In this document: positions 45,833 to 60,849 of the stretch, one piece after another
Layout: the number at the start of each line of letters is the position of its first letter
Position numbering within the stretch: position 1 is the first letter of the stretch
Program-made: the position numbers and the translations under genes
NCBI RefSeq assembly: GCF_012933465.1
Contig: NZ_JABBND010000024.1
Coordinates: 1-64,000, forward strand
Length of the DNA stretch: 64,000 nucleotides
Reading direction: 5' to 3'
Source of the DNA: Actinomycetospora sp. TBRC 11914
GTDB taxonomy: Bacteria; Actinomycetota; Actinomycetes; Mycobacteriales; Pseudonocardiaceae
Notes under the pieces: generated by a model
What the model saw: the letters and a program-made list of their open reading frames with translations, nothing else
What the model was told of the DNA's origin: nothing
Database searches by the model: none

Positions 45833-47044
45833 ATGGCTTTCTCGATGGAACTGTCCGAGGACCACACCGACCTGCGCGACTGGGCGCACGGCTTCGCCGA
45901 GGAGGTCATCCGCCCGGCGGCCGAGGAGTGGGACGAGCGCGAGGAGACCCCCTGGCCGGTCCTGCAGGAGGCCGCGAAGATCGAGCTCTACAACTTCGAG
46001 ACGCTCGCGTCCTTCTGGGGTGACGAGACCGGGCTGTCGCTGCCGATCGTCAACGAGGAGCTCTTCTGGGGCGACGGCGGCATCGGCATGGCGATCTTCG
46101 GCACGACCCTCGCCGTCGCCGGCATCTTCGCCTCGGGCACGCCCGAGCAGATGGTCGAGTTCATCCCGCAGTGCTACGGCGACGCCGACGACGTCAAGGT
46201 CGGTGCCTTCTGCTCCTCGGAGCCGGAGTCGGGCTCGGACGTCTCGGCGATGCGGACCAAGGCCGTCTACGACGAGGCCAAGGACCAGTGGACGCTCTCG
46301 GGCCAGAAGGCCTGGGCCACCAACGGCGGGATCGCCAACATCCACGTGGTGCAGGCCGTGGTCGACCCGTCGCTGGGCAGCCGGGGGCAGGCCGCGTTCG
46401 TGGTGCCGCCGAACACGCCGGGCCTCGAGTCCACGCGCAAGATCAAGAAGATGGGGCTGCGCGCCTCGCACACCGCCGACGTGTTCCTCGACGACGTCGT
46501 CGTCCCCGGCTCCTGCCTGCTCGGCGGGAAGGACAAGCTCGACGAGCGCCTGGCCCGGGCACGGGAGGGCGCCAAGTCCAAGGGCTCGGCGGCGATGCAG
46601 ACCTTCGAGCTCTCGCGCCCGACCGTCGGGGCCCAGGCCGTGGGCATCGCCCGGGCGGCCTACGAGTACGCGCTCGAGTACGCCAAGGGCCGGGAGACGT
46701 TCGGCCGGCCGATCATCGACAACCAGTCGATCGCCTTCACCCTCGCCGACATGAAGACCGAGATCGACGCGGCACGGATGCTCGTGTGGCGGGCCGCCTG
46801 GATGGGGCGCAACGGCGTGCCGTTCGAGGCGGGCGAGGGCTCGATGTCGAAGCTGAAGGCCGGCCGGACCGCGGTGTGGGCCACCGAGCGGGCCATCCAG
46901 ATCCTCGGCGGCGCCGGCTACTCCCGGGAGCACCCCGTGGAGCGCATGCACCGCGACTCGAAGATCTACGACATCTTCGAGGGCACCGAGCAGATCCAGC
47001 AGCTCGTCATCGCCCGCTCCATCTCCGGGCGCCACATCCCCTGA
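45833..47044 (+). CDS. acyl-CoA dehydrogenase, 3' end supplied by the AICE
   Basis: 403 residues. Opens MAFSMELSEDHTDLRDWAHGFA; has FCSSEPESGSDVSAMRTKA, WATNGGIANIHVVQAVVDPS, the FAD loop YAKGRETFGRPIIDNQSIAF, LGGAGYSREHPVERMHRDSK and the conserved end IYDIFEGTEQIQQLVIARSI. FAD-dependent acyl-CoA oxidation, in an operon with the SCP2 gene. The element recombined within 46962-47007, so the codons after 47007 come from the mobile element yet keep the reading frame and the ending SISGRHIP. The displaced host end (SISGRHIA) is at 60767-60849. Confidence 0.95.
   Translation: MAFSMELSEDHTDLRDWAHGFAEEVIRPAAEEWDEREETPWPVLQEAAKIELYNFETLASFWGDETGLSLPIVNEELFWGDGGIGMAIFGTTLAVAGIFASGTPEQMVEFIPQCYGDADDVKVGAFCSSEPESGSDVSAMRTKAVYDEAKDQWTLSGQKAWATNGGIANIHVVQAVVDPSLGSRGQAAFVVPPNTPGLESTRKIKKMGLRASHTADVFLDDVVVPGSCLLGGKDKLDERLARAREGAKSKGSAAMQTFELSRPTVGAQAVGIARAAYEYALEYAKGRETFGRPIIDNQSIAFTLADMKTEIDAARMLVWRAAWMGRNGVPFEAGEGSMSKLKAGRTAVWATERAIQILGGAGYSREHPVERMHRDSKIYDIFEGTEQIQQLVIARSISGRHIP
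46962..47007. other. attL core
   Basis: 46 bp starting AGATCTACGACATCTTCGAG, identical to 60767-60812. Downstream to the stop codon the two copies differ only at four positions, three of them synonymous. Confidence 0.85.
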
Positions 47045-47157: not shown

Positions 47158-48387
47158 TCAGGCCGTCGTCAGGCCGTCGGAGGTATGCACGGCGGCCCCG
47201 AGCAAGGCGTCCACGGCCTGCCGAGCGCGAGCGTGGCTCGACGGCACGAGGTGGGTGTAGGTCCGGAGCGTGAAGCCGGGGTCGGTGTGGCCCAGGTACT
47301 CGGCGACCTCCTTGATCGAGACGCCGCCGGCCAGGAGCGTCGAGGCGTAAAAGTGCCGCAGGGCGTGCATACCGTCGGTCCGAGGTTCGTAGGCGAGCTC
47401 GGCGGTCCGGAACGCCCCGCGCCACATCACCTTGTTGAAGTGGTCGCCCGAGTGGGGCGCGCCCCGCTCGTTGGTCAGCAGCAGCTCGACCTCGACGGTG
47501 CGCCCTCCCGGCTCCAACCACGGCAGCCGGACCCGGACCGGGGGAAAGGCCCGACGATGTGTCGCGACGGCGCCGCGGACCCTGTCGGGCAGCGGGACGC
47601 TCCGGGACTTGCCGCCCTTGGGTGGGGCGAAGACGAGCTGACCGCGGATGATCCGCAGTTGCCGAACGACGTGCACCACCGACTCTACGGCGTCGACGTC
47701 ACCGGGCGAGAGCCCGAGTACTTCACCCTGACGCAGGCCGAGCCCGGCCCCGAGGTCGACCGCGAGACGCCACCGCTCGGCCAGCCCTTCCTGCACGGCG
47801 CGGACTCGTTCCACCGGCCACGGCACGACGCGGCGGCTGGATCGCCGCGGCTTCTTGATGCTCCGTGCCTGACAAGGATTGTCACGAATGAGCTTGTCCT
47901 CGACGGCGGCGTTCATGATCGAGGAGAGCGTGTCGAAGAGGACCGCCCGATACGTCCCGTCGAGTCGTCGCTCCTCCAGCCATGCGAGCCAGTCACGCAC
48001 GCGGGCCGGCCCGACGGCATCGACCGGGCGCCGGTCGAAGAATGGGTAGAGCTGGCTGCGCAGCCGGCTCTCGATGGACTGTCGGGAGGACGCGTCGCTG
48101 GACTGTCCCTTGACCCAACTCTCCGCGTACTCGCGGAACGGCAGCTTGCCGGCGTCCGGGTCGAGGTAGGTCCCCGCGCGGACACCGGACTCCATCTCCC
48201 CGAGGAAGTCCTCCGCGGCCTTCTTGCGTCGGTCAGGGAACGACTTCGACCGCTCTCGGCCCTCGGGGTCGATGTAGCGCACCTTGTAGCGAAGGCCGGT
48301 GCCGTGCAGGTCGGTGCGCTCTCGTCGCGTCTCGCCGGTGAGCTCGTCCCGCACGGTCCGGAACCAACGGTCTTGTACGTGGCCCAT
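47158..48387 (-). CDS. int: tyrosine site-specific integrase
   Basis: 409 residues. The N-terminal arm-binding-like region has GLRYKVRYIDPEGRERSKSF, followed by a core-binding SAM-like domain (EYAESWVKGQ) and the catalytic domain: Arg in GLGLRQGEVLGL, Lys in KGGKSRSVPLP, HALRHFYAS, LGHTD and the nucleophile Tyr 377 in RTYTHL. It integrates and, with the excisionase, excises the element. It sits next to attL, reading toward it. Its 3' end carries one copy of the 26-bp repeat. Confidence 0.96.
   Translation of the reverse strand: MGHVQDRWFRTVRDELTGETRRERTDLHGTGLRYKVRYIDPEGRERSKSFPDRRKKAAEDFLGEMESGVRAGTYLDPDAGKLPFREYAESWVKGQSSDASSRQSIESRLRSQLYPFFDRRPVDAVGPARVRDWLAWLEERRLDGTYRAVLFDTLSSIMNAAVEDKLIRDNPCQARSIKKPRRSSRRVVPWPVERVRAVQEGLAERWRLAVDLGAGLGLRQGEVLGLSPGDVDAVESVVHVVRQLRIIRGQLVFAPPKGGKSRSVPLPDRVRGAVATHRRAFPPVRVRLPWLEPGGRTVEVELLLTNERGAPHSGDHFNKVMWRGAFRTAELAYEPRTDGMHALRHFYASTLLAGGVSIKEVAEYLGHTDPGFTLRTYTHLVPSSHARARQAVDALLGAAVHTSDGLTTA
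47159..47184. repeat. Left copy of a 26-bp repeat flanking the att core (candidate arm site)
   Basis: CAGGCCGTCGTCAGGCCGTC followed by GGAGGT. It recurs at 60643-60668 with one mismatch, in the same orientation, and overlaps the last codons of the integrase gene. It contains an internal direct repeat of AGGCCGTCG. Confidence 0.6.
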
Positions 48388-48393
48388 GAGTGA

Positions 48394-48582
48394 TCACGCC
48401 GCTTCGGGCTGGGTCGCCCATGCCCGGACCTGATCAGGCGCGTACCGGAGGTGACGACCGATCTTCCGGACCGGAGGACCCTCGCCGCGCCACTTCCACT
48501 GGTAGAGCGTCTTCACAGGGATGCCGAGGTAGGCCGAGACGTCGTCGACCGACCAGAGACCCTCCGTCGGTGTGGTCGTCAT
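48394..48582 (-). CDS. xis: excisionase / MerR-like helix-turn-helix protein
   Basis: 62 residues: LWSVDDVSAYLGIPVKTLYQWKWRGEGP followed by RKIGRHLRYAPDQVRAW, the standard Xis/BldC-like winged helix of AICEs. It directs excision with Int. It ends 6 bp before the int start and its ATG overlaps the stop of the replication gene by 4 nt, giving the order rep-xis-int. Confidence 0.93.
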   Translation of the reverse strand: MTTTPTEGLWSVDDVSAYLGIPVKTLYQWKWRGEGPPVRKIGRHLRYAPDQVRAWATQPEAA

Positions 48583-50273
48583 GCTGCTGCTCCTTGATCG
48601 TGAGTTGCCGAGCTGACGTCGTCCTTGGCTTGGTCGTACTGCTGGCGCCATCGGCGGCGTTGGGCGATCGATCGGAGGAGTAGTTCGAGCCGGTCGGGTT
48701 GGTCGGGGTCTTGGGGTCCGATGAGCTGCCAGGTGTAGCGCTCGGAGTCGGCTTCGTCGGTGTCGTGTTCGGGCTTGGCGCCGACGGCGCCGAGGACGCG
48801 CAGGACGTGGGTGCGGCGTTCGCCGCGGTGTTCGGTGAGGGTCTTGCCGGACCACTTCCGCGAGACGAGGCAGCGGCGGCCGCCGTATCCGAGGTGTCCG
48901 GCCTTGTGTGCCTTGGCCTTGCACTTGCCCGGGGCGAGCCCGGCCCGGGCGCCCTTCGGGGTGATGCCGTACAGGAGCCAGTTCGGGCAGGTCTCTGAGC
49001 ACGGCTCGTACCGGAGCGCGTCGACGAGCCGGTCGACGTGATGTTCGGCGGCCGGCGTCTCCGGTGCGTGGCACTCGGCGACGCCCTTGGTCAGGTACTT
49101 GGTCAGGTAGCCCAGCGCCCGTTCGGCTTCGCCGGTCTCGCCGAGGACGCCTTGAACGTCGACCTGTGGGCCGAACCCGAGCACGTGGGCGGGGATGGCG
49201 TCGTCGCCGGTGGTGTGGGTGTCGAGGGCCTGCTCCCAGGTTGGGAGCGGGAGCCCGGTGTCGGGGTCGACGTAGCAGGAGTGCTTGCGGGTCTCGTCCC
49301 AGACTGGCGGGTTCTCCACCGTGTAGACGGGTTGGTCGGCTGGGGGCCACCAGACTTGGTGGTAGGTGGCGGCGGCGACCTCACGGATCAACTTGCGCGG
49401 GAGGGTGCCGCGGATGGCGGCGTGCAGGTGTGGTGCGCCGCGGCGTTGGGGTTCGACGGCGGCGAAGTACTGGATGTTCCAGCCGGCGGCTCGGCGCAGG
49501 TTCTGCCAGAACCGATCGACGAGCTTGCCGAAGTGCAGCGCGTCGCGGGCGGCGCGGCGGTAGTCGTAGCGGTCGGGGTCGCGTGGGGCGCCGTCGGAGC
49601 GGACCGGCCCGTACGAGGGCAGGGTCATCGTCACGAAGGTCGAGGGCCGGTAGGTCCGCCCGTTGGGGGCCTCGAACACCCGCCCGGTGGTCTGGGCGCG
49701 GACCTTGTGCCGAGGCAGGTTGGGGGCGTCCTGACGGCGTCGGGTGCTGCGGGTCCTCCGCTTCGGCCCCTGCTCCCCGTCGTCTTCTTCGCCGCGCGGA
49801 TGGCGGGGGGTGGTGAGGGTGCCGCGGATGCCTTCGGCGCGCAGCAGGGCGTCGGCTTGGTCGATGGCCGCCTCGAGGTCGCGGGCGCGGTCGGTGTCGC
49901 CGTGCTCGAGCGCGGCGGCGTGGTCGTCTTCGAGGTCGGCGCGGTGGCCGAGCAGGGCCCGTTGCCGCACGGTGGGTTCGGCGGTGGTGATGGTGGGTTC
50001 CTCGGACAGGTGCCAGCCTTCGCGGGCCTGGTGCATCCGCAACCGCCGCGCCCGAGCCGCGCACGGTCCACAGACCGCCGCCCGGGTGGCCCCGCAGGGG
50101 ATCGGGACCACCGTGGCCTGTCCGGTCTCGGTGTCGATCCGTCGGACCGCGAGCGGACGCACGCAGGCGCCGACCTCTTCGGCGTGCGTGATCGCCAGTT
50201 CCCGGGCGAGTGGGGCGGTGATCTTCCCGACCGGCACCGGCCCCGGCTCCTGGACCGTCTCGGGGGCGGTCAT
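48579..50273 (-). CDS. replication initiator, RepSA-like
   Basis: 564 residues. The N-terminus has a Cys cluster (PCGATRAAVCGPCAARARRLR). The central HUH-type motif is PHLHAAIRG with His 282 and His 284, preceded by the conserved RPSTFVTMTLPSYG and FFWQNLRRAAGW-like region (FWQNLRRAAGWNIQYFAAVEPQ). The Tyr-rich motif GYLTKYLTKG spans about 388-397. It is a rolling-circle initiator for the excised form, typical of AICEs. The start overlaps the FtsK gene stop by 4 nt (ATGA), and the stop overlaps xis by 4 nt. Confidence 0.93.
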   Translation of the reverse strand: MTAPETVQEPGPVPVGKITAPLARELAITHAEEVGACVRPLAVRRIDTETGQATVVPIPCGATRAAVCGPCAARARRLRMHQAREGWHLSEEPTITTAEPTVRQRALLGHRADLEDDHAAALEHGDTDRARDLEAAIDQADALLRAEGIRGTLTTPRHPRGEEDDGEQGPKRRTRSTRRRQDAPNLPRHKVRAQTTGRVFEAPNGRTYRPSTFVTMTLPSYGPVRSDGAPRDPDRYDYRRAARDALHFGKLVDRFWQNLRRAAGWNIQYFAAVEPQRRGAPHLHAAIRGTLPRKLIREVAAATYHQVWWPPADQPVYTVENPPVWDETRKHSCYVDPDTGLPLPTWEQALDTHTTGDDAIPAHVLGFGPQVDVQGVLGETGEAERALGYLTKYLTKGVAECHAPETPAAEHHVDRLVDALRYEPCSETCPNWLLYGITPKGARAGLAPGKCKAKAHKAGHLGYGGRRCLVSRKWSGKTLTEHRGERRTHVLRVLGAVGAKPEHDTDEADSERYTWQLIGPQDPDQPDRLELLLRSIAQRRRWRQQYDQAKDDVSSATHDQGAAA

Positions 50274-51826
50274 CGGCGGGCCTTGCGGCGCGGCCGAGGG
50301 GTGTCCTCGGGCTGGTCGGCGGTGTCGTCGAGGATTTCGCCGTCGATGACGTCCGGGACCAGCCGGGAGGGGGTGGGGTAGGTGTCGGCGAGCCAGGCGA
50401 GTTGGTCGTCGTCGACGAACCCGGCCCTGACCTTGGTCACGGTCGGGGAGCCGTCCTCGATGACGTAACCGATCCCGGGCGCGGTGATCGGGATGCGGTC
50501 GGCGGTGGCGCCGCGGTCGCGGGCCCCGTCGCCGAGGACCATCGCCACCTCGGACTTCTCGGACAGGCGTAGGGCGATGCGGGTGGTGAACAGGTTCCGC
50601 AGCTCCAGGACGTCCTTGCGGGGGTCCTGCACACACCCGACCACCGAGACGCCGGGGGCGCGGCCCTTGGTCAGCAGCCGGCCCAGCGCGAGCTTGGCCC
50701 GATCACGCAGCTGCCGATCCCCGAGATAGGCGGTCAGCGAGGCGATCTCGTCGACCACCACCAGGTAGAACGGCTCGGCGACCGTCGGGACGTGCTGGCG
50801 GGAGACCCCGCGGAGCTCCTTGGCTCGGGCCTGGACGAGGTCGGCGGCCAGTTCCAGGGCCTCAACCATCTCGGCATCCGTTTCGCACGCAAGGTGCCAG
50901 AACAGGCCGGGGTAGAGCCCGAACTCCATGCCGCCCTTCGGGTCGATCCCGATCACCCGCACCGACCCCGCCGCAATCGCCGGCGCGAGCTGAGTGAACA
51001 ACGCCGCCACCACCGTCGACTTCCCCGCCCCGGTCGCGCCGGCGACGAGGAGGTGGCGGCCGCGGAGCTGGAGCAGCCACGGCGTGCCGTCCTCGCGCTG
51101 CCCAAGCTCCAGCGCGGACAGGTCGACATCATCGGGAGTGCGGGGTGGCGCGACGCCGTCGAGCAGGGTGTCGGCGGCGATCACCCGCAGCAGACACCAC
51201 CCCCGCCGCGTCGGGTAGGGCAGGACGCGGACCTCCAGGGCATGGAACTCCGAGCGCAACGCATCACAGCGTTCCGCGAGGTCCTCGGCGGTCACCCCGG
51301 GACAGAGCTGCACCGACAGGACGTCGGCATAGCGACCCAGCTGGACCCACCACAACCGCGGAACCCGAACGGTGTGGTGGGCGTCGCGGGCGGCGAGCCC
51401 GCAGGAGGCCAACAGGTCGCTCCAGGTCCAGCGGTAGCGGACGCGGCGGGCGAACCGGTCCGCCCGGGACTCGACGAGCCGGTCGAACGAGTCCGGCCAC
51501 ATCCATCGCCACCCAGCCCCAGCTGCGAGCAACACCGCGGCGAAGGCGAGGCCGGCCATGCGGCCCTCCAGGTTCCACAGCACCACGACCCCGGCGAACG
51601 CGGCGCCGACGAGGGGGACATAGGCCAGGAACCACACGGCCATGCCCGCGGCCCACACCGTCAGGGCGATCAGGCGGACGGTGGCGGCCAACGCGGACCG
51701 GCGGAGGCGGGCGCCGAGGGTGATGGGGCGTTCGATGCGGGTGGGCTGGATGTCGGCGCGGCGGCGGACGGTGGTGCCGCGCAGCGCGGAGGTGTCGAAA
51801 AGCTGCAACCCAAGAAGCGGAGACAT
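50270..51826 (-). CDS. FtsK/SpoIIIE-type DNA translocase (TraSA/TraB-like)
   Basis: 518 residues. Two or three membrane helices at about 45-115 (LIALTVWAAGMAVWFLAYVPL, MAGLAFAAVLLAAGAG), then the motor domain with Walker A GATGAGKS (Lys 269), FYLVVVDEIASLTAYLG as Walker B and a C-terminal winged segment. In AICEs and Streptomyces plasmids this single protein transfers double-stranded DNA between mycelia. Start ATG 51826 overlaps the preceding small gene by one base (TGATG). Confidence 0.93.
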   Translation of the reverse strand: MSPLLGLQLFDTSALRGTTVRRRADIQPTRIERPITLGARLRRSALAATVRLIALTVWAAGMAVWFLAYVPLVGAAFAGVVVLWNLEGRMAGLAFAAVLLAAGAGWRWMWPDSFDRLVESRADRFARRVRYRWTWSDLLASCGLAARDAHHTVRVPRLWWVQLGRYADVLSVQLCPGVTAEDLAERCDALRSEFHALEVRVLPYPTRRGWCLLRVIAADTLLDGVAPPRTPDDVDLSALELGQREDGTPWLLQLRGRHLLVAGATGAGKSTVVAALFTQLAPAIAAGSVRVIGIDPKGGMEFGLYPGLFWHLACETDAEMVEALELAADLVQARAKELRGVSRQHVPTVAEPFYLVVVDEIASLTAYLGDRQLRDRAKLALGRLLTKGRAPGVSVVGCVQDPRKDVLELRNLFTTRIALRLSEKSEVAMVLGDGARDRGATADRIPITAPGIGYVIEDGSPTVTKVRAGFVDDDQLAWLADTYPTPSRLVPDVIDGEILDDTADQPEDTPRPRRKARR

Positions 51827-51999
51827 CAGGAGGCCTTCCGGGAGCGTCCACACCGGGTGGGGTGCAGGGCGGTGAGGGGGAAGAGGGGCTGTTGGTCGAG
51901 GTGGCCGGCACACCGTCGTCGGTCGCGGCGGGGGCGGTCATCGCTGAGGCGGGCGCGGCAGACCTCGCAGCGCGCGGCGACTATCTCGACGGCGCTCAC
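51826..51999 (-). CDS. small Cys-containing protein (possible zinc finger)
   Basis: 57 residues from GTG 51999: VSAVEIVAARCEVCRARLSD, then CAGHLDQQPLF and a Cys near the end (HPTRCGRSRKAS). The pair CEVC and two later Cys could bind zinc. It overlaps the WhiB gene end by 62 bp in another frame and the translocase ATG by one base, consistent with the coupled operon. Small genes sit at this position in other AICEs. Coding status is supported by overlap only. Confidence 0.55.
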   Translation of the reverse strand: MSAVEIVAARCEVCRARLSDDRPRRDRRRCAGHLDQQPLFPLTALHPTRCGRSRKAS

Positions 52000-52405
52000 G
52001 CCACCGCGCCCGACGGCTCGGCATGTCGGCGAGGGCGTCGAGGTGGCGGGCGTGGTCGCGGAGCTGCACGTAGAGCCGGCCCCGCTCGGTGGCGGACAGC
52101 CCGCCGAACACGCCATAGCGCGCCAACGGGGGCTCGCGGGTCATCGCCTCAGCCAGGCACGCCGCCTGCACCGGGCACCCGGCACAGACCTGCTTGGCCT
52201 GCTCCACCCGGGCAGCGCCGAGGAGTCCGGTCTCGGTGGGCGGGAAGAACACCGTCTCGTCCATCCCCGCGCACGCGGCGTCCTCGTGCCAGTCGGGGAC
52301 CGAGCCGCCCTCGAAGACCAGCTCGCGGACCAGGGACCGCAGCCGCTCACGGGTCATCCGCCGCACCGAGCGGACCGGGCGGGTCGTCGGGTCGACGGTG
52401 CTCAC
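51938..52405 (-). CDS. WhiB-family iron-sulfur regulator
   Basis: 155 residues. Cluster Cys: one in DAACAGMDETVFFP and three in CAGCPVQAACLAEA (C-x2-C-x5-C). The usual GVWGG turn is GVFGG here (YGVFGGLSATERG). The C-terminus is Arg-rich (SRRARWRERRRDSRRALRG), as in DNA-binding WhiB proteins. WhiB proteins bind a 4Fe-4S cluster and act with the housekeeping sigma factor. Its presence in the transfer operon suggests element-encoded control. GTG 52405 overlaps the upstream gene by 4 nt. Confidence 0.92.
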   Translation of the reverse strand: MSTVDPTTRPVRSVRRMTRERLRSLVRELVFEGGSVPDWHEDAACAGMDETVFFPPTETGLLGAARVEQAKQVCAGCPVQAACLAEAMTREPPLARYGVFGGLSATERGRLYVQLRDHARHLDALADMPSRRARWRERRRDSRRALRGLPRPPQR

Positions 52406-52677
52406 GCCGCACCCCCCGAAGCAGGACCGGGTACGCGCGCCGCGACCGTGGCGGCGGGAACCGTCCAGCGCTCGCACGCCTCGACGAACACCTGCAGGGC
52501 GGCGAGCAGGGAGCGGGCTGCTTCCAGCTCCTCGTCGCTGACCTCGTCGAGGTGCCGCGGGGTCAGGGTGAGCACTGTGCGGGCGTCCTCGACGACGTCG
52601 AGGATCGGGGTCTGATCCGGCGGGGTGATCACCTCGGCCCGCCCGATCGGGGTCAGGCGCACCGACAGCCCGCGCAT
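52402..52677 (-). CDS. hypothetical AICE protein
   Basis: 91 residues, not recognised. Opens MRGLSVRLTPIGRAEVITPP, with a predicted helix HLDEVSDEELEAARSLLAALQVFVEACERW. It overlaps the WhiB gene by 4 nt and the Pra-like gene by 1 nt (TGATG), so it belongs to the core operon. No Cys, signal peptide or membrane helix. Confidence 0.75.
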   Translation of the reverse strand: MRGLSVRLTPIGRAEVITPPDQTPILDVVEDARTVLTLTPRHLDEVSDEELEAARSLLAALQVFVEACERWTVPAATVAARVPGPASGGAA

Positions 52678-53114
52678 CAGGCCACCGCCTCAGCCGACTT
52701 GCCCGACGACGTGGCGTGGCGGCGGTTCTGGCCGGGGGCGTGCATCCCAGTCGCGCGCAGGCTGAACGCCACCCGCGGTCGCGGGCTGTTGGAGTCCAGG
52801 TACGGGGTGACCTCCAGGCCCTCGAACTCCACCGGCCGGAACGGCAGACCGGGCAGCGCTTCCGGGGGCACCGGCTGCACCTCGGCCGCGATCTTCACCG
52901 TCACCGACCGCTCGGCCTTGCGGGCCTCGGGGTCCGGGTCGTGGACCCCGACCTCCCACAGCGGCAGCCCCGTCACGGTGTCGTGCTGCTGCACGAACTT
53001 GTCCTTGCTCGACCGATCGAAGTCGCGGACGGGCTCTGCGCCGTCGGTGGTCAGGAACGCGCCGTGCGGGAACACGTCTTCCATCGCCACCCGCAGACGC
53101 CGCTTGATTGCCAT
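52677..53114 (-). CDS. Pra-like replication/integration/excision activator
   Basis: 145 residues. Opens MAIKRRLRVAMEDVFPHGAFL, then VTGLPLWEVGVHDPDPEARK, SVTVKIAAEVQPVPPEALPG and FRPVEFEGLEVTPYLDSN, which I recognise as the family named for pSAM2 Pra, the activator of replication, integration and excision. It is the first gene of the leftward operon, with GATCGATTGC just upstream. ATG 53114 is chosen over 53129 because family members begin at M-A-I/x-K/R. Confidence 0.8.
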   Translation of the reverse strand: MAIKRRLRVAMEDVFPHGAFLTTDGAEPVRDFDRSSKDKFVQQHDTVTGLPLWEVGVHDPDPEARKAERSVTVKIAAEVQPVPPEALPGLPFRPVEFEGLEVTPYLDSNSPRPRVAFSLRATGMHAPGQNRRHATSSGKSAEAVA

Positions 53115-53244
53115 GATCGATTGCTCCACTTCGCTGAATCGAGACCCGCTGGTCGGGGTCTGCGTCTAGCGTCGGAGCGGTCACGGGGGTCGACCCGGAA
53201 GAAAATTCCGGGGTCCTTCGCCGGGGCGGAGGGAGGTTGTTGCC

Positions 53245-54474
53245 ATGCGAGGCATGACCGAATCACTGACCATCGGCGAGCGCGTGGCGTTCTACCGCCG
53301 CCGTCGCGGCCTGTCCCAGAGTGTCGTGGCCGGGCTGGTCGGCCGAACCGAGGACTGGCTGAGCAAGATCGAGAACAACCGGGCCGAACTCGACCGGCTC
53401 TCGGTGATCCGGAAGTTCGCCGACGTCCTCGATGTCTCGCTCGGTGACCTCCTCGGTGAACCGACCTTGCTCGACTGGACCGCCGAGAGCGGAACGAGCA
53501 CCGTCCCCGCTCTCCGCGCCGTGTTGATGGACTATCGCCAGCTCAACAGCGTCTTGCGTCGGGCTTCGGTAGCGACCGAGGCACCGGCCCTGGACAACAT
53601 CGAGCGTGACGTCGCAGCGGTCTTCGACGCCTACCAGGCGTCCCGGTTCGGATTCGTCACCACGCGTATGCCGCTGCTGCTCACCGACGCGCTCGCCGCC
53701 GCCGACTTCTACGACGGACCGGCCGGCGAACGCGCACACGCAATGCTCGCACTCGCCTACCAGGTCTCGGCGTCCACGCTGACGAAGCTGGGGGAGTGCG
53801 ATCTCGCGTGGATGGCGGCTGACCGTGGACTCGCCGCAGCGCAACGCTCCGGGAGCCTCCCCGTCATGGGGTCTCTGCTCCGGTCGGTCGTGCACTCCCT
53901 GCTCTCGACCGGCCGCTACGACGCCGCGGTCCAGCTGACCGCCGACGGCTCCGACCATCTCTCGGGCTCACTCGGCGGCGCCGACACCCGACTCTGGTCG
54001 GTGTATGGGTCGCTGTTCCTAGCGGGGGCCATGGCGTCGTCTCGCATGGACGATCGCGGCATGACCCGGGACTTCCTCGAGCAGGCGCAGCGGGCCGCCG
54101 GTTACCTCGGCGCTGACGCCAACCACATGTGGACCGCCTTCGGCCCGACCAACGTCGCCATCCACCGCGTTGCGACCGCGATGGAACTCGGCGACGTGCA
54201 GGTCGCGGCCGACCTCGGCCCCACGGTCGACACGTCCGGCCTCCCAACCGAACGGCGGGTCCGCCACGCCCTGGAGACCGCGCGCGCCCTCTCGGTGTCC
54301 GGACGACGCGACCAGGCACTCGTCACCGTTCTCGACGCGGAAAGGCTCGCCCCCGAGCAGGTCCGCCACCACTTCATCAGCCGCCAGCTTGTGCTCTCGT
54401 GGATGAAGAACCCTCGCGGCACCGTCACGACCGAGTTGGGCGCTTTGGCCCATCGCCTGCGGCTCGCCGCTTGA
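53245..54474 (+). CDS. XRE-family regulator with TPR-like sensor domain
   Basis: 409 residues. Helix-turn-helix: GERVAFYRRRRGLSQSVVAGLVGRTEDWLSKIENNRAELDRLSVI. The rest is all-helical with repeated Ala/Leu patterns (AMLALAYQVSASTLTKLGECDLAWMAADRGLAAAQ), typical of TPR-containing regulators (Rgg/NprR-like or actinobacterial XRE proteins). Divergent from the Pra-operon with 130 bp between them, so it is the probable element repressor or activator. ATG 53245 with GGAGGGAGG upstream. Confidence 0.88.
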   Translation: MRGMTESLTIGERVAFYRRRRGLSQSVVAGLVGRTEDWLSKIENNRAELDRLSVIRKFADVLDVSLGDLLGEPTLLDWTAESGTSTVPALRAVLMDYRQLNSVLRRASVATEAPALDNIERDVAAVFDAYQASRFGFVTTRMPLLLTDALAAADFYDGPAGERAHAMLALAYQVSASTLTKLGECDLAWMAADRGLAAAQRSGSLPVMGSLLRSVVHSLLSTGRYDAAVQLTADGSDHLSGSLGGADTRLWSVYGSLFLAGAMASSRMDDRGMTRDFLEQAQRAAGYLGADANHMWTAFGPTNVAIHRVATAMELGDVQVAADLGPTVDTSGLPTERRVRHALETARALSVSGRRDQALVTVLDAERLAPEQVRHHFISRQLVLSWMKNPRGTVTTELGALAHRLRLAA

Positions 54475-54520
54475 ACAGGCACACCTGAGCCGGCGCCCGG
54501 CCGTCAGTACCCTCACGGGC

Positions 54521-54997
54521 ATGAGCGCACCGGAGGACTCGTTCGCTACGCCGCGCGTCGCGGCCGGAGCCTTCTTCCTCGATGCCTCGGGTCGGGTCCT
54601 GCTCGTGCACCCGACCTACAAGGACACCTGGGACATCCCCGGCGGGTACGTCGAGCGAGGCGAGTCGCCAGCGTCGGCCTGTCGACGCGAGGTACGGGAA
54701 GAACTCGCTCTCGATCGCGAACCGCTTCGCCTGGCCGCCGTGGACTGGGCTCCCAACGACCGCGAGGGTGACAAGCTGCTGTTCGTCTTCGACTGCGGTC
54801 CGCTCGGCGAGGACGAGGCCCGTATCCAGCTCGACGGGCGCGAACTCGACCGCTGGGAATGGGTCGGACGCGACCGACTCGACGAGTACCTCATCCCCCG
54901 TCTTGCCCGCCGCGTCGGCTCACTGATGGCCGGGGACACCGAAGGTGGAGCGTACTTCGAGCACGGTGTTCCGTTCCCTGGGCCGGCGCTGGTCTGA
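54521..54997 (+). CDS. Nudix hydrolase, Pif-like
   Basis: 158 residues. Nudix box at 42-64: GYVERGESPASACRREVREELAL, with Ala 63 where the consensus has Gly. Opens VAAGAFFLDASGRVLLVHPTYKDTWDIPGG. pSAM2 encodes the Nudix protein Pif, which blocks redundant transfer into cells already holding the element; the position beside the regulator in an AICE suggests the same job. The biochemical substrate cannot be read. 46 bp after the XRE gene, so probably cotranscribed. Confidence 0.85.
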   Translation: MSAPEDSFATPRVAAGAFFLDASGRVLLVHPTYKDTWDIPGGYVERGESPASACRREVREELALDREPLRLAAVDWAPNDREGDKLLFVFDCGPLGEDEARIQLDGRELDRWEWVGRDRLDEYLIPRLARRVGSLMAGDTEGGAYFEHGVPFPGPALV

Positions 54998-55258
54998 TCC
55001 TGGGTCGCCTCCGCGCTCATGGCCGCGCGGGGCCGAGGCCAACCGCGATGGACCGCCTTCGGCGGGCGGTCTGTCGGCCCCGGAGCGTCACACGGGCGTC
55101 CTCACGTTCAAGGGTGCTTCGCATCGCTGCGCGACGGACTCCGTCCGCCCTTGATCGCGAGCCTCGACGCCCGTGCTCAGGCGCTCCAAGCGCGGCGGGG
55201 GCAGCACCCCGCCACCACCTCCGGGGCCGACAGACCCCGGCTGCGCTTGGAGGCCCCC

Positions 55259-55621
55259 ATGACCATGCTTCGCGATCTCCTCGCCACCTGGGAGAACTGG
55301 TCCGCCCGCGACACCCTGACCCGCGCCCTCAGTACCGCGACCACCGAACACGACCGCGACGTCCTCCGACGTGGGCTGCACACGACTCCTGACGTCGACC
55401 CGCTCGACGCACTGCGCGCCGGCTCCGAGCTCGTCGCGCTGCTCCGCGGCTGGCAGTGGCAGGCCGTCTACGCCGCCCGACGCGCCGGTTCGTCCTGGAA
55501 CCATGTCGCGTGCGCGCTCGACATCACCGCCGAGCAGGCCCGTGCGGACTACCTCGCCGCAGTCGTGCAGCAGGAGCGCCACGGGATCAGCGACGTCACC
55601 GCCTACCGCGAGGTCCTGTAG
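55259..55621 (+). CDS. hypothetical AICE-associated helical protein
   Basis: 120 residues: MTMLRDLLATWENWSARDTL, then DALRAGSELVALLRGWQWQAVYAARRAGSSW and VACALDITAEQARADYLAAVV, the last part resembling a helix-turn-helix of sigma-like type. Not assigned to a family. 261 bp after the Nudix gene, a gap in which I see no gene. The ATG has GGAGGCC just upstream. Confidence 0.65.
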   Translation: MTMLRDLLATWENWSARDTLTRALSTATTEHDRDVLRRGLHTTPDVDPLDALRAGSELVALLRGWQWQAVYAARRAGSSWNHVACALDITAEQARADYLAAVVQQERHGISDVTAYREVL

Positions 55622-55665
55622 CCGCCGCCGTGCCGGGTTGACCTCTCTTCAGGAGAGCCCCACCA

Positions 55666-55731
55666 GGACCCCGGCCCTGTGCTCCACCCGGACCCCGGCG
55701 CTGTGCTCCAGGACCCTGGAACTGTGGTTGT
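55666..55731. repeat. GGACCC-type direct repeats (candidate clt / transfer locus)
   Basis: GGACCCCGGC(C/G)CTGTGCTCC at 55666-55686 and 55690-55710, then a diverged third unit GGACCCTGGAACTGTG from 55711. Streptomyces TraB recognises short direct repeats at the clt site; whether these serve that role is a guess. Confidence 0.35.
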
Positions 55732-56071
55732 GGACAAGGCCGGTACGACCTGCACCTCCGGCACGACCTGCACGACCACCGGCACGACGGGCACGACGGG
55801 CACGACGGGCACGAACGGCAAGCCCGGCACCGATATCGTGAAGGGCACCGACGGGACCGGCCACGCCGACAACGGCACCGGCAAGACCGGCACCGGCACG
55901 ACTGGCACGACCGGCCGCTGACCCGTCCTCACCGCTAGCCCGGCCCCGACACTCGCGGGGCCGGGCCAAACGTCGTCACGGCGCCGCGGCACTCCAGCCA
56001 CGGCAGAACACCGGGCCCGAGGGCGCTTGCGCAGCCCAAGTAACTCCTAAGGGCGGGCAGCGTCCGTTGCG

Positions 56072-56127
56072 GGACGCACGCAGGCGCCGACGTCTTCGGC
56101 GTGCGCGACCGCGAGTTCCCGGGCGAG
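56072..56127 (-). pseudogene. Fragment of a second RepSA-like gene
   Basis: 52 of 56 bp match the N-terminal part of the element's own replication gene (50155-50210). On the minus strand it encodes LARELAVAHAEDVGACVRP, against LARELAITHAEEVGACVRP in the intact gene. No longer frame survives, so it is a relic. Confidence 0.75.
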
Positions 56128-56261
56128 CGTGAGCGCGTTGCCGAGTTGACCTCTCTTCAGTCAAGGCGGCGCCTCCGGCGCCGCGCCGGCACGGCCCTCG
56201 GCCCTGGCCTCCCGCTCCGCTTCGGCGGGCCGGGGCCTGCCGGCTGCGCACCGTGGCGGAC

Positions 56262-57305
56262 CTAATTCTTCGAGGGCCGGTCCTCGTTCGCTTGTCGGCG
56301 CTGACGTACTTCCTCGTCAAGGGTGCGGGCCTGCTCGTGGTCCCCGAGCGCGTGCAGGTCGGTGGCGAGGTTGTTGGCTGAGGTCAGGGTGTCGGGGTGG
56401 TCCTCGCCCAGGACCCGGCGGCGGCGGGTGAGGGTGTCCTCGTTGAGGGTGCGGGCCTGCTCGTAGTCCCCGAGCTCGCGCAGGTCGATGGCGAGGTTGT
56501 TGGCCGAGAGCAGGGTGTGGGGGTGGTCCTCGCCCAGGACCCGGCGTTTACGGGTGAGGGTGTCCTCGTTGAGGGTGCGGGCCTGCTCGTAGTCCCCGAG
56601 CTCGCGCAGGTCGAGGGCGAGGTTGTTGGCCGTGCTCAGGGTGTCGGGGTGGTCCTCGCCCAGGACCCGGCGGAAGCGGGTGAGGGTGTCCTCGTTGAGG
56701 GTGCGGGCCTGCTCGTAGTCCCCGAGCGCGTGCAGGTCGAGGGCGAGGTTGTTGGCCGAGCTCAGGGTGTCGGGGTGGTCCTCGCCCAGGACCCGGCGGG
56801 TGCGGGTGAGGGTGTCCTCGTCGAGGGTGCGGGCCTGCTCGTAGTCCCTGAGCGCGCGCAGGTCGTTGGCGAGGTTGTTGGCCGTGCTCAGGGTGTGGGG
56901 GTGGTCCTCGCCCAGGACCCGGCGGGAGCGGGTAAGGGTGTCCTCGTCGAGGGTGCGGGCCTGGCCAAAGCGCCCCACCGCGCGTAAGTCGATGGCGAGG
57001 TCGTTGGCCGAGGACAGCGTCGTTTGGTGGTCGGGGCCGAGGCGCGCGAGGTTGCGTTCGTGGGCTTGTTCAAACAGCGGCAGCGCGCGCCAGGGGTCAC
57101 CGCGGGTCTGGAGGTAGTCGCCGCTTTTGGTCAGCAGCCAGCACGCCTGGTCCTCGTTGGCGTGGGCGTAGGACCCGGTGCTGACCGCGAGGGCATGGGG
57201 CAGCAGTTGCGCCCACACCGGCCAGGTCTCAGGGCTGTTCCACGGAACCTCCGGCGCCTCCGCTCGCACCAACGACACCGCCACCGAACCGAGATGCACG
57301 TTCAT
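56262..57305 (-). CDS. TPR protein coupled to the STAND ATPase
   Basis: 347 residues. After a lead segment (AEAPEVPWNSPETWPVWAQLLPHAL) come six 42-residue TPR units of kinesin-light-chain type, each with ARTLxEDTLTRxRRVLGEDH and an SANNLAxDL segment. The lead segment is normally fused to NB-ARC ATPases. The ATG overlaps the ATPase stop by 4 nt (ATGA), so this is the split C-terminal half of a DUF4062-NB-ARC-TPR protein. Probably the sensor of the system. Units are nearly identical at DNA level (126-bp tandem repeat). Confidence 0.85.
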   Translation of the reverse strand: MNVHLGSVAVSLVRAEAPEVPWNSPETWPVWAQLLPHALAVSTGSYAHANEDQACWLLTKSGDYLQTRGDPWRALPLFEQAHERNLARLGPDHQTTLSSANDLAIDLRAVGRFGQARTLDEDTLTRSRRVLGEDHPHTLSTANNLANDLRALRDYEQARTLDEDTLTRTRRVLGEDHPDTLSSANNLALDLHALGDYEQARTLNEDTLTRFRRVLGEDHPDTLSTANNLALDLRELGDYEQARTLNEDTLTRKRRVLGEDHPHTLLSANNLAIDLRELGDYEQARTLNEDTLTRRRRVLGEDHPDTLTSANNLATDLHALGDHEQARTLDEEVRQRRQANEDRPSKN

Positions 57306-58852
57306 GGGGCATCGGCGCCGTTGTCGTGTTCTCGATCGTGGCGCTCACGCAGGAGGGCCTGGACCAGGCGGTGAAGGGTCAGCGAGTCGGTGTCGATTCG
57401 GGCGAGGGCGCGGCGACGTAGCTGGCCGGTGAGGTCGGTGAAGGCCAGCGGGTCGCCCGCGACCGCTGCGAGGGGGTCGGGCAGCAGGTCGGTGTGGCCG
57501 GTGAACAGGCTAAAGGGGATGGGTTCTGGCGCCAGATAGGCGCCAATGGTCAGTAGCTGCAGCGCAGCCGGCTCGTCATCGGCCAGGTGGTCGAAGACCA
57601 GCCCCCAGCTCGCGGCGAGCGAGGTTGGGTAGTCGGCGGGCCGGCCGCGGGCGGTGATCTCCCTCGCGCGGGAGTCGAGCAGTCGTAGGTAGTGCTCGGT
57701 GTCCATGCCGCTCTCGGCGAGGTAAGCGCCGGCCTGGGTCAGCGCGAGCGGCAGCCGATCAAGGGCTGCGGCGACGCGTGCTGCCTCGGTGTCGGAGAGC
57801 GCGGGGGCGCGAGCTTGCAGCAGGGTGACCGCCTCACCGCGACCGAGGACGTCGAGGGCGACCGGGTCGGCGATGCCCTCCCAGTTCGGGTTTCGCGAGG
57901 TGATCAAAACGTGGCCTGGCCCGGCCGGTAGGTGCTCGAGCAGGGTGGCGGGGTCTTCGGCGTTGTCGAAGCAGATCAGCCATCGGTCGTGGTCGTGGAA
58001 GAAAGTGTGCAGCCGGGCCACTGCGACCCCGACCGCTTCCGAGGTTCCCGCGAGGCCGATGCTTTGGGCGCATTCGGCCAGGGATGCGGGGATCATCGCG
58101 GGGTCCTCGGAGGGGACCCACCACACCAGGTCATAGTCCTCGCCATGGCAGTGGGCGTATTCGATGGCGAGGGCAGTCTTGCCGACTCCGCCCATGCCGT
58201 GCAGTGCGTGGATCACGCTCACCGCTCGCTCACCCTGCTCCAGCGCGGCGCGCAGCACGGCGAAGACCTCGCTGCGGCCGGTGAAGACCTGGTTGCGTGG
58301 CGGCACCCGCCACACCCGCAGACCAGCCGAGGTCGCGGGGCTGTCGCCGATCGTGACGGTGAGCTTGTGGAGGGCGCGTTCTACCAGTGTCGCCAGCTCG
58401 TCGGGGCTCGTGGCCGTGTCACGCGTGATGCGGGCCTGTCCGACCCGACGGCGGAATGCTTCTTGCTCCCTGGCGTGCTCGACCTCGGCGAAGAGCTCCC
58501 GGTGGCCCTCGGTGGTGTCGAGCAGGAACACCAGCAGTGGTTTACCGGCCCGGTGGGCGGTGTCGAACTCCAACTCGGTATAGGACACGGTCGGGTGGTG
58601 ATCGGGCACGGTCGAGCCGTAGCGGAAGCCGAGCACCCCGAGATAGACATCGGTGGATTCCACCGCCTCCCGGCACACCTGGACCGGCGGGTGCGGCTCA
58701 GCGCTCCAATGCTTCATGTCCACTGGAACGTGACCGGCCGCAATGACAGCGGCCTCGACCTTGTCGATGAACGACGCCCCGGCAGGATGGCGGCGCAGTT
58801 CGCTGGTGTGACTCAGGAACACCCGCAACGGTCGACCCTGGCTACCCCCCAT
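57302..58852 (-). CDS. STAND NTPase: DUF4062 - NB-ARC
   Basis: 516 residues. DUF4062 at about 8-110 (LRVFLSHTSELRRHPAG, VQVCREAVESTDVYLGVLGFRYGS), then NB-ARC: NQVFTGRSEVFAVLRAALEQ, Walker A GMGGVGKT with Lys 225, Walker B WLICFDNAED, GHVLITSRN and LPLALTQAGAYLAESG, ending in a winged helix (LRRRALARIDTDSLTLHRLVQALLRE). Related proteins carry TPRs in the same chain; here they follow as a separate coupled ORF. NB-ARC proteins of this type occur in antiphage and signalling systems. ATG 58852 is used; ATG 58864 is possible. Divergent from the DUF4231 gene, 52 bp away. Confidence 0.88.
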   Translation of the reverse strand: MGGSQGRPLRVFLSHTSELRRHPAGASFIDKVEAAVIAAGHVPVDMKHWSAEPHPPVQVCREAVESTDVYLGVLGFRYGSTVPDHHPTVSYTELEFDTAHRAGKPLLVFLLDTTEGHRELFAEVEHAREQEAFRRRVGQARITRDTATSPDELATLVERALHKLTVTIGDSPATSAGLRVWRVPPRNQVFTGRSEVFAVLRAALEQGERAVSVIHALHGMGGVGKTALAIEYAHCHGEDYDLVWWVPSEDPAMIPASLAECAQSIGLAGTSEAVGVAVARLHTFFHDHDRWLICFDNAEDPATLLEHLPAGPGHVLITSRNPNWEGIADPVALDVLGRGEAVTLLQARAPALSDTEAARVAAALDRLPLALTQAGAYLAESGMDTEHYLRLLDSRAREITARGRPADYPTSLAASWGLVFDHLADDEPAALQLLTIGAYLAPEPIPFSLFTGHTDLLPDPLAAVAGDPLAFTDLTGQLRRRALARIDTDSLTLHRLVQALLRERHDREHDNGADAP

Positions 58853-58904
58853 GGGTCCTAGCATCCCGGAACGTCACGCACAGCAACACCACCGGGGGCG
58901 CAGG

Positions 58905-59435
58905 ATGGAACAGGCCGACACCACGGCATCAGACGAACCCGCTCCATCACCGTCGCGCTCGGAGCCCAGTAGCCCGATGCCATCTGGCGCGGCCGAGTCC
59001 GCTCGCGCTGAGCGACCGGACCCCACGTGGGAGCGGCTGGAGGACCAACTGCGGTGGTACAGCCAGGCCAGTCGTCGCGCGAAGTCCTCCTTCCAGCGGC
59101 TCAAGGTCGCCGAGCTCATCGTGGGCGCCACCGTGCCGGTGGTGGCGGCGCTGCAGGTGCCGGCGGCGATCACCGCGGTCCTCGCGGCGCTGGTGGTGAT
59201 CGCTGAAGGGGTGCAGCAGCTGTTCGGCTGGCAACGCGACTGGCTGGGCTACCGCGGGGTGCTGCAGTCGCTCAAGCGGGAGAAGTTCCTTTTCCTCGCC
59301 CACGCCGGCCCTTACACGGGACCTGACCGGACCGGGGTGCTGGCCGCACGCATCGAGACGCTCATGGCCCAGGAACACAGCTCCTGGACCGAGAACCACG
59401 ACGCCGACTATGACACCGGCACACGCCCCCAGTAG
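58905..59435 (+). CDS. DUF4231 / SLATT-like membrane protein
   Basis: 176 residues. A Pro/Ser-rich N-terminus, an amphipathic stretch TWERLEDQLRWYSQASRRAKSSFQRLK, and two hydrophobic helices at about 69-105 (LIVGATVPVVAAL, AITAVLAALVVIAEGVQQLF). After them come GWQRDWLGYRGVLQSLKREKFLF and the ending AQEHSSWTE. DUF4231 proteins belong to the SLATT superfamily, predicted pore-forming effectors in conflict systems. The neighbouring STAND gene suggests the same here. ATG 58905 has GCGCAGG upstream. Convergent with the second TPR gene. Confidence 0.83.
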   Translation: MEQADTTASDEPAPSPSRSEPSSPMPSGAAESARAERPDPTWERLEDQLRWYSQASRRAKSSFQRLKVAELIVGATVPVVAALQVPAAITAVLAALVVIAEGVQQLFGWQRDWLGYRGVLQSLKREKFLFLAHAGPYTGPDRTGVLAARIETLMAQEHSSWTENHDADYDTGTRPQ

Positions 59436-59462
59436 TCCCACGCCGCGGCCGCAGACCCATGC

Positions 59463-60473
59463 CTACAGCCGCCACGCACCCGCCCGCACGTCGTGTGCCT
59501 CCTGCGCCCGACCAAGGACGTCGAGGTCGAGGGCGAGGTTGTTGGCCGTGCTCAGGGTGTTGGGGTGGTCGTCGCCCAGGACCCGGCGTTTACGGGTGAG
59601 GGTGTCCTCGTTGAGGGTGCGGGCCTGCTCGTAGTCCCCGAGCGCGTGCAGGTCGAGGGCGAGGTTGTTGGCCGTGCTCAGGGTGTTGGGGTGGTCCTCG
59701 CCCAGGACCCGGCGTTTACGGGTGAGGGTGTCCTCGTTGAGGGTGCGGGCCTGCTCGTAGTGCTCGAGCGCGTGCAGGTCGAGGGCGAGGTTGTTGGCCG
59801 AGAGCAGGGTGTTGGGGTGGTCCTCGCCCAGGACCCGGCGGGAGCGGGTGAGGGTGTCCTCGTTGAGGGTGCGGGCCTGCTCGTAGTGCTCGAGCGCGTG
59901 CAGGTCGAGGGCGAGGTTGGCGGCCGAGAGCAGGGTGCTGGGGTGGTCCTCGCCCAGGACCCGGCGGGAGCGGGTGAGGGTGTCCTCGTTGAGGGTGCGG
60001 GCCTGCTCGTAGTCCCCGAGCTCGCGCAGGTCGAGGGCGAGGTTGTTGGCCGAGCTCAGGGTGTCGGGGTGGTCGTCGCCCAGGACCCGGCGGGAGCGGG
60101 TAAGGGTGTCCTCGTCGAGGGTGCGGGCCTGGCCAAAGCGCCCCACCGCGCGCAGGTCGACGGCGAGGTCGTTGGCCGAGGACAGCGTCGTTTGGTGGTC
60201 GGGGCCGAGGCGCGCGAGGTTGCGTTCGTAGGCTTGTTCAAACAGCGGCAGCGCGCGCCACGGGTCACCGCGGGTCTGCAGGTAGTCGCCGCTCTTGGTC
60301 AGCAGCCAGCACGCCTGGTCCTCGTCGGCGTGGCCGTAGGACCCGGCGCTGACCGCGAGGGCATGGGGCAGCAACTGCGCCCACACCGGCCAGGTCTCAG
60401 GGCTGTTCCACGGAACCTCCGGCGCCTCCGCCCGCACCACCAACGCCGCCACCGAACCGAGGTACGTGCCCAC
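59463..60473 (-). CDS. free-standing TPR protein, paralogue of the STAND-coupled TPR protein
   Basis: 336 residues from GTG 60473, starting VGTYLGSVAALVVRAEAPEV, aligned with the first TPR protein and near-identical for about 270 residues at DNA level. Six 42-residue TPR units (last one ends at AQEAHDVRAG). It lacks any ATPase in front: the upstream 160 bp have no P-loop. An in-frame ATG at 60629 would extend it without family similarity. Probably a duplicated sensor module or the remains of a second STAND protein. Confidence 0.75.
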   Translation of the reverse strand: MGTYLGSVAALVVRAEAPEVPWNSPETWPVWAQLLPHALAVSAGSYGHADEDQACWLLTKSGDYLQTRGDPWRALPLFEQAYERNLARLGPDHQTTLSSANDLAVDLRAVGRFGQARTLDEDTLTRSRRVLGDDHPDTLSSANNLALDLRELGDYEQARTLNEDTLTRSRRVLGEDHPSTLLSAANLALDLHALEHYEQARTLNEDTLTRSRRVLGEDHPNTLLSANNLALDLHALEHYEQARTLNEDTLTRKRRVLGEDHPNTLSTANNLALDLHALGDYEQARTLNEDTLTRKRRVLGDDHPNTLSTANNLALDLDVLGRAQEAHDVRAGAWRL

Positions 60474-60642
60474 ACTGGGAGCGTGCCACCGATGCGCTCT
60501 GGGGACACGCGTGCTGCCACTTGCAGCCAACTCGGCGCACGCCCCCGGATTCTTCCGACCGTGGACGAAGCCCAACCTGTGGAGACGGACACCACCGGAC
60601 CGCGTCGGAAGCTCGCGAGCCAGTCGCAAGACGAAGGCTGCC

Positions 60643-60668
60643 CAGGCCGTCGTCAGGCCGTCGAAGGT
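60643..60668. repeat. Right copy of the 26-bp repeat flanking the att core
   Basis: Matches 47159-47184 in 25 of 26 positions, 98 bp left of the attR core. In the circular form the two copies would flank the att core on both sides. Confidence 0.6.
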
Positions 60669-60766
60669 CGGAGAGCGCCCAGCGGAGCTGAGAAGTGTCG
60701 AGCAGCTTCGGCCCAGGTCGGAGCAGGTCCTGTCGCGGTAACCGCAGGTCGCCGACGACCCGCGAC

Positions 60767-60812
60767 AGATCTACGACATCTTCGAGGGCACCGAGCAGAT
60801 CCAGCAGCTCGT
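60767..60812. other. attR core
   Basis: Identical to 46962-47007 over 46 bp; the direct repeat left by site-specific integration. Confidence 0.85.
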
Positions 60813-60849
60813 GATCGCCCGCTCGATCTCGGGGCGCCACATCGCCTGA
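60767..60849 (+). pseudogene. Displaced 3' end of the acyl-CoA dehydrogenase
   Basis: Encodes IYDIFEGTEQIQQLVIARSI then SGRHIA and a TGA, with no start codon. It is the host gene end pushed 13.8 kb to the right by integration; the intact gene at 45833-47044 uses the element's own copy. The host terminator follows at 60883-60928. Confidence 0.85.

Follow-up and report, generated by a model that had tools for sequence, protein, structure and literature searches.

Does a STAND ATPase carried by a mobile element depend on a separate membrane protein to act on its host cell, or does it bring an effector of its own? The question is raised by four open reading frames (ORFs) in the first 64,000 nucleotides of contig NZ_JABBND010000024.1 of Actinomycetospora sp. 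TBRC 11914 (assembly GCF_012933465.1), a stretch that we call the window, where a DUF4062-NB-ARC STAND gene diverges from a DUF4231/SLATT gene in the cargo of an actinomycete integrative and conjugative element (AICE). A first-pass annotation had taken this locus for a candidate defence module. We regard it, with a probability of about 0.5 for the statement as a whole, as a mobile NLR-type abortive-infection module in which a TIR-like NADase would act in cis and the SLATT protein would be a probable second effector. The four ORFs are:

56262..57305, minus strand: TPR-A, 347 aa; Pfam TPR_12 4.1e-88; apparent C-terminal sensor half of a split STAND gene
57302..58864, minus strand: STAND, 520 aa; DUF4062 3.3e-15 and NB-ARC 2.3e-6 (Pfam), winged helix
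58905..59435, plus strand: DUF4231/SLATT, 176 aa; PF14015 1.7e-23; NCBIfam SLATT_1 5.9e-29
59463..60473, minus strand: TPR-B, 336 aa from a GTG start; Pfam TPR_12 1.2e-69; no ATPase

The domains of all four ORFs pass the Pfam cut-offs, and the ORFs lie where the first-pass annotation had placed them. The divergent pairing of a repeat-bearing STAND protein with a SLATT gene, which it had also described, is confirmed at a distance of 40 bp for the start codons chosen; TPR-B is convergent with the SLATT gene. The same annotation overlooked the splitting of the STAND gene, the origin of TPR-B as a recent duplicate of TPR-A, and the likely role of DUF4062 as an effector.

Relatives were drawn from 200 genomes of one family and a class sample of 394 genomes. 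Among the matches listed for the 200 family genomes, with seven candidates scored per genome, STAND is matched nearly end to end at 17 other places (loci are designated here by L numbers), and 16 of these full-length relatives were aligned with the window sequence; the alignment leaves out L108, cut short by the end of its contig, and the relatives in L110-L114 that are partial or broken. All 16 run through the window's split point in one frame, and on this comparison STAND and TPR-A are therefore best read as one gene in two pieces. Past that point a LLPHVL helix follows in every aligned relative and then TPR repeats in 15, L107 ending soon after. In the window the sensor is not in the same chain as the ATPase but in a separate ORF in frame -1, whose start overlaps the STAND stop by four bases (ATGA), a normal coupling arrangement. 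The "coupled TPR sensor" of the first-pass annotation is thus a TPR sensor half with such an overlap, though not a gene of its own. The idea that TPR-A is an independent gene by descent was rejected on the continuity in all 16 relatives. A chimaeric origin of TPR-A, considered because of third-position G+C, was likewise discarded, since the gap of about 0.095 between TPR-A and the STAND half compares with 0.097 in the relative L098. The values of both halves are high (0.83 and 0.92). The split falls in a variable inter-domain linker, with no sequence missing between the end of STAND and the start of TPR-A. It may reflect termination-reinitiation, with two chains as its product, a frame break that leaves the gene without function, or a mistake in the assembly. 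The nucleotide site of STAND is intact, with NB-ARC above its cut-off; S94, Y95, T96, E97 and E99, the P-loop residues G226, G228 and K229, and D300, R324 and H498 are invariant in all 17 aligned sequences. Two genomes, G180 and G154 (L095, L097, L098, L099, L100), hold four and three full-length DUF4062-NB-ARC-TPR genes, with TPR arrays of different lengths.

The candidate effector lies at the other end of the same protein. By sequence (Pfam) the N-terminal domain is DUF4062 and not a canonical TIR domain; a model of residues 1-180 (predicted local distance difference test, pLDDT, 75.4) matches TIR and NDT structures. The invariant pair E97 and E99 is present also in DUF4062 proteins from phage contigs, and those of similar length have the SYTELE motif in common with STAND. 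PDB sequence searches with STAND and with SLATT gave no match. The DUF4062 family has been reported to consist of antiphage NADases (2026 preprint, PMC13174449). Because of the TIR/NDT fold, the invariant glutamate pair and the reported activity of the family, we consider DUF4062 the likely in-cis effector of STAND, probably acting by NAD destruction; STAND would carry its own effector, and SLATT would be at most a second one. On the same grounds, the fold and the glutamate pair, we rejected SLATT as the only effector.

TPR-A consists of about seven TPR units of 42 residues each. TPR-B, which the first-pass annotation had listed as a spare TPR protein, is indeed present, but its DNA at 59524-60461 aligns without gaps to 56356-57293, with 93.6% identity over 938 bp, the homology starting 12 bases inside TPR-A, at the split. 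TPR-B thus appears to be a recent duplicate of the TPR half, without the ATPase. Since a tandem pair of STAND genes exists in L099, it may be the remnant of a second STAND gene. Over 312 codons the two copies differ by 10.5 synonymous and 49.5 non-synonymous changes (dS, the synonymous divergence, 0.045; dN, the non-synonymous divergence, 0.075), which gives no sign of purifying selection after the duplication but is not conclusive. Few positions vary among the ten full 42-residue units of the two proteins, with 10, 20, 23, 24, 30, 33, 34, 36 and 37 varying most, as they would in a modular sensor.

What, then, is the place of the SLATT protein? It scores 100.7 bits against the NCBIfam SLATT_1 cut-off of 41, its model (pLDDT 76, alignment of 3 sequences) shows a helical hairpin with helices at 40-81, 85-132 and 142-170, and it is predicted to be a two-helix membrane protein. 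DUF4231 genes adjoin two of the 17 full-length relatives, L046 (co-directional, upstream) and L109 (convergent). By a hand estimate over about 1.46 Gb, covering 38 other DUF4062 places and the DUF4231 matches listed, about 0.03 such neighbours would be expected by chance; this uniform model ignores the clustering of defence islands. Accident is unlikely under it, and shared defence islands could explain the adjacency. A third case, reached by tblastn, is plasmid pVL1_5 of Methylobacterium indicum (NZ_AP024150.1; L184 1430-7757), where a 173-aa DUF4231 protein is encoded between two STAND genes in the order TIR-ATPase-TPR, DUF4231 and then, divergently, DUF4062-like-ATPase-TPR (annotated fxsT, DUF4231, fxsT); the DUF4062 match there, 21.1 bits, is below the cut-off of 24.7. 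A plasmid search with the window SLATT gave no match, and the pVL1_5 DUF4231 protein as query matched only itself. Another hit, H4, is a Sinorhizobium record that carries no annotation, and gene calling in L183 found no gene. The first-pass annotation had named a lack of recurrent linkage as the finding that would speak against a module; linkage does recur in these three places, but in a minority of the relatives (2/17) and in varying orientation.

DUF4231 adjoins TIR genes more often than DUF4062-STAND genes. We surveyed 65 DUF4231 loci, namely 40 from the top of the places listed and 29 earlier ones minus L039, L040, L042 and L043, which hold no DUF4231 by profile; L002, L109 and L184, found or picked by another route, were kept outside this set. 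All genes cited for fetched loci are approximate calls, made with a simple script that uses third-position G+C. A TIR match lies within 2 kb in 15 of the 65 loci and a DUF4062-STAND in one (L046), with neither in 49; of the 16 loci with a TIR match at any distance, 15 have the nearest one inside 2 kb. Five TIR genes beside DUF4231 served as seeds of the TIR profile, which therefore favours such TIRs; in a control, one round earlier, the profile gave 2 matches (L103, L139) in 80 DUF4062 regions (L095-L174). Pfam confirms 12 of the 15 TIRs above the cut-off of 28, two of them barely (L200, 28.8; L205, 28.4), with L216 at 27.6 and no TIR row for L208 and L224. TIR and SLATT genes are co-directional in L002, L035, L037, L038 and L047. 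The last is one of the three closest SLATT relatives, and in it the SLATT gene is followed by a gene for a 187-aa protein and then by a TIR-nSTAND1 gene; no TIR was found in the other two, L048 and L049. The 187-aa protein (L047:1448-2008) has no Pfam match, and an out-of-frame trace seen by eye near 11106 in L049 is possibly the same gene, after SLATT. In L200, L205, L208, L216 and L224 large beta-propeller proteins adjoin the DUF4231 genes; their N-terminal TIR match exceeds the cut-off in the first two loci and is weaker in the last three, and these loci appear to be another repeat-sensor arrangement with SLATT. Around the DUF4231 gene of L196, a stretch of 19 kb contains three matches to the TIR profile and one to DUF4062, a possible defence island.

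The four ORFs travel in an AICE of about 13.9 kb, with a tyrosine integrase, a pSAM2-type Rep (RepSA) and an FtsK/SpoIIIE transfer gene between att repeats. The cargo status that the first-pass annotation had assigned to the locus is borne out by these genes together with WhiB and NUDIX genes between the direct repeats:

46951..47044, plus strand: attL repeat, 3' end of the intact acyl-CoA dehydrogenase gene; 94-column direct repeat
47158..54997, no strand assigned: AICE backbone, with integrase (47158-48387), RepSA, FtsK/SpoIIIE, WhiB, HTH_31 regulator and NUDIX (Pfam)
56240..60642, no strand assigned: four-ORF interval, holding exactly four ORFs; flanks 56129-56239 and 60643-60849 conserved in L231 and L232, interior not
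60760..60849, plus strand: attR repeat, copy of the acyl-CoA dehydrogenase tail; 91.5% identical to attL

The integration site is an acyl-CoA dehydrogenase gene, at its 3' end, and not a tRNA gene, the usual preference of AICEs. Integrases with 91-93% identity to this one occur in 3 of 17 further genomes from the genus, and the three sister elements (L231, L232, L233) lie next to the same acyl-CoA dehydrogenase gene and have the left part of the backbone in common. In the two whose contigs reach it (L233 ends earlier), the four-ORF block is replaced as a whole by other genes: an M78/IrrE-type peptidase and a PF09000 "Cytotoxic" protein in L231:12797-14340, an AraC-type regulator and an alpha/beta hydrolase in L232:12356-14348. 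This whole replacement fits one mobile block, as far as the compared sequences go, and is no proof of joint action. Other stretches vary as well, L231 differing at about 53114-55015, where the window has HTH and NUDIX genes, and L232 at about 55236-56132. When the right flank was searched for across the genus at DNA level, most matches were short and weak, and no empty site was seen. A small ORF rich in Gly-Thr repeats lies at 55679-55921 (plus strand), between the NUDIX region and the cargo interval.

Comparison with known systems suggests that the parts are familiar and that the combination, which would join two known arrangements, looks rare. According to Rousset et al. (PMC9122126), a single-gene TIR-STAND-TPR protein (TIR-NLR) of P4-like satellites protects against phage, and so does a TIR gene with transmembrane partners, phage AC1 coding for TIR and transmembrane proteins. 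The window locus resembles the TIR-NLR in its N-terminal TIR fold, central STAND NTPase, C-terminal TPRs and carriage as mobile-element cargo, but has a TIR-like DUF4062, a chain split before the TPRs and a divergent SLATT gene. With Swarozyc (PMC13174449) it has in common a DUF4062 effector domain with a conserved glutamate pair, a likeness drawn from phage-contig proteins and not from the published protein; Swarozyc senses the phage portal by a C-terminal winged auxiliary domain, whereas the window has NB-ARC and TPRs. According to a survey (PMC9503650), TIR genes adjoin two-transmembrane (2TM) SLATT genes in phages of firmicutes, and SLATT is predicted to be regulated by ADP-ribose derivatives; another source (PMC7159879) places SLATT with nucleotide-related effectors including TIR. 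As in the pairs of that survey, a TIR-fold gene adjoins a two-helix SLATT gene in the window, but the window's TIR-like domain is joined to a STAND switch and a repeat sensor, and the genes are divergent, not co-directional. The trio on pVL1_5 likewise has a short DUF4231 gene divergent from a DUF4062-like STAND gene and flanked by a second TPR gene, except that both its STAND genes are complete. Among the titles and abstract openings listed from the open-licence literature, none names a DUF4062-STAND and SLATT system.

If the locus is such an abortive-infection module, the TPRs would bind a phage protein, NB-ARC would exchange nucleotide and then oligomerise, and the clustered DUF4062 domains would cleave NAD, so that the cell stops growing or dies ahead of phage release. 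TPR-A would probably be made by termination-reinitiation and act as a separate chain. SLATT, as a second, membrane effector, would be opened by a product of the NAD cleavage or through contact with the oligomer, and may make the cell leak. Several observations weigh against this reading. The solved folds closest to the DUF4062 model are DNPH1/NDT-type N-glycosidases, not TIR itself; by profile comparison the likeness to TIR is moderate (77.8% with alignment A3, only 35.1% with the family alignment A1); and in the A3 comparison the TIR glutamate is aligned to E99, not E97, so that either residue may be the catalytic glutamate. The gene split could be damage. STAND and SLATT have no match in PADLOC, and the PD-T4-6 matches of TPR-A (2e-5) and TPR-B (0.0033) are weak and driven by the repeats. 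DUF4231 was not found in the fetched stretches of 15 of the 17 other full-length relatives, although among the 17 the stretches of L046, L099, L100, L107 and L108 are truncated by contig ends and a DUF4231 gene farther out could be missed. Nor was it found in any of the 60 regions with DUF4062 that were fetched for other families of the class, which are part of the DUF4062 places listed. Where linkage occurs, its orientation is divergent, co-directional or convergent, and L046 and L109 encode longer, double-SLATT proteins. These 15 relatives, together with the TIR-like domain in cis, also tell against the suggestion of the first-pass annotation that a pore-former in trans takes the place of a fused effector.

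The probabilities that we attach to the preferred reading and to its rivals overlap somewhat. It is possible, if less probable, that STAND alone is the defence system, a NADase of TIR-NLR type, with SLATT either a passenger that has nothing to do with it or a small system of its own in the same cargo interval. The TIR-NLR is a validated single-gene system (PMC9122126), most full-length relatives have no DUF4231 found nearby, most DUF4231 loci have neither a TIR nor a DUF4062-STAND gene within 2 kb, and no other small membrane gene was seen to recur beside the full-length relatives, by eye and by a hydropathy scan so insensitive that it finds only one of the two helices of the window SLATT. However, the adjacency in L046 and L109 exceeds the uniform chance model, the divergent layout is repeated on pVL1_5, in another phylum, and STAND and SLATT both lie inside a single replaced interval. 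We think it unlikely that the locus is decaying cargo, in which a tandem STAND pair has lost one ATPase, leaving TPR-B, the other member has been split by a frame change, and little or nothing works. The continuity of the split point in the aligned relatives, the tandem pair of L099, a relative with several frame breaks (L111), the lack of an ATPase in TPR-B and the dN and dS values would fit such decay; on the other hand, all the listed switch residues are kept, the split lies in a linker with nothing missing, the ATGA overlap is normal for coupled genes, and third-position G+C is high in both halves.

Rather improbable, in our view, is a STAND system with two effectors and exchangeable sensors, in which a single ATPase/NADase chain would work with the separate, nearly identical chains TPR-A and TPR-B, these would compete as alternative sensors or recombine as cassettes at the linker, and the NAD-derived product of DUF4062 would gate a SLATT pore. 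We give very little credence to the reading that the locus encodes an NB-ARC-TPR regulator of FxSxx/AfsR-like type with a housekeeping or developmental role, even though the STAND half scores 346 bits against the cut-off of 300 for NCBIfam FxSxx_TPR (NF040586), TPR-A alone reaching 293.4. FxsT of the FxSxx-COOH system has a radical SAM maturase and an FxSxx peptide next door. No radical SAM match was found by Pfam among the AICE ORFs scanned, a search that did not extend to small ORFs or the rest of the window, and the protein has an N-terminal DUF4062. Carriage on a mobile element, in an interval that is filled otherwise in two sister elements, also speaks against a regulator, as does the lack of a full-length match in the 9 other genus genomes searched, two of which have weak partial matches.

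If the abortive-infection reading is right, a TIR-type NLR and a TIR-SLATT pair would be joined in one mobile block of 4.4 kb. Its sensor would be a naturally separate chain, so that sensor, switch, NADase and membrane effector could each be removed and tested alone, and the locus would offer a system for asking whether an ADP-ribose product opens SLATT, which the literature consulted gives as a prediction only.

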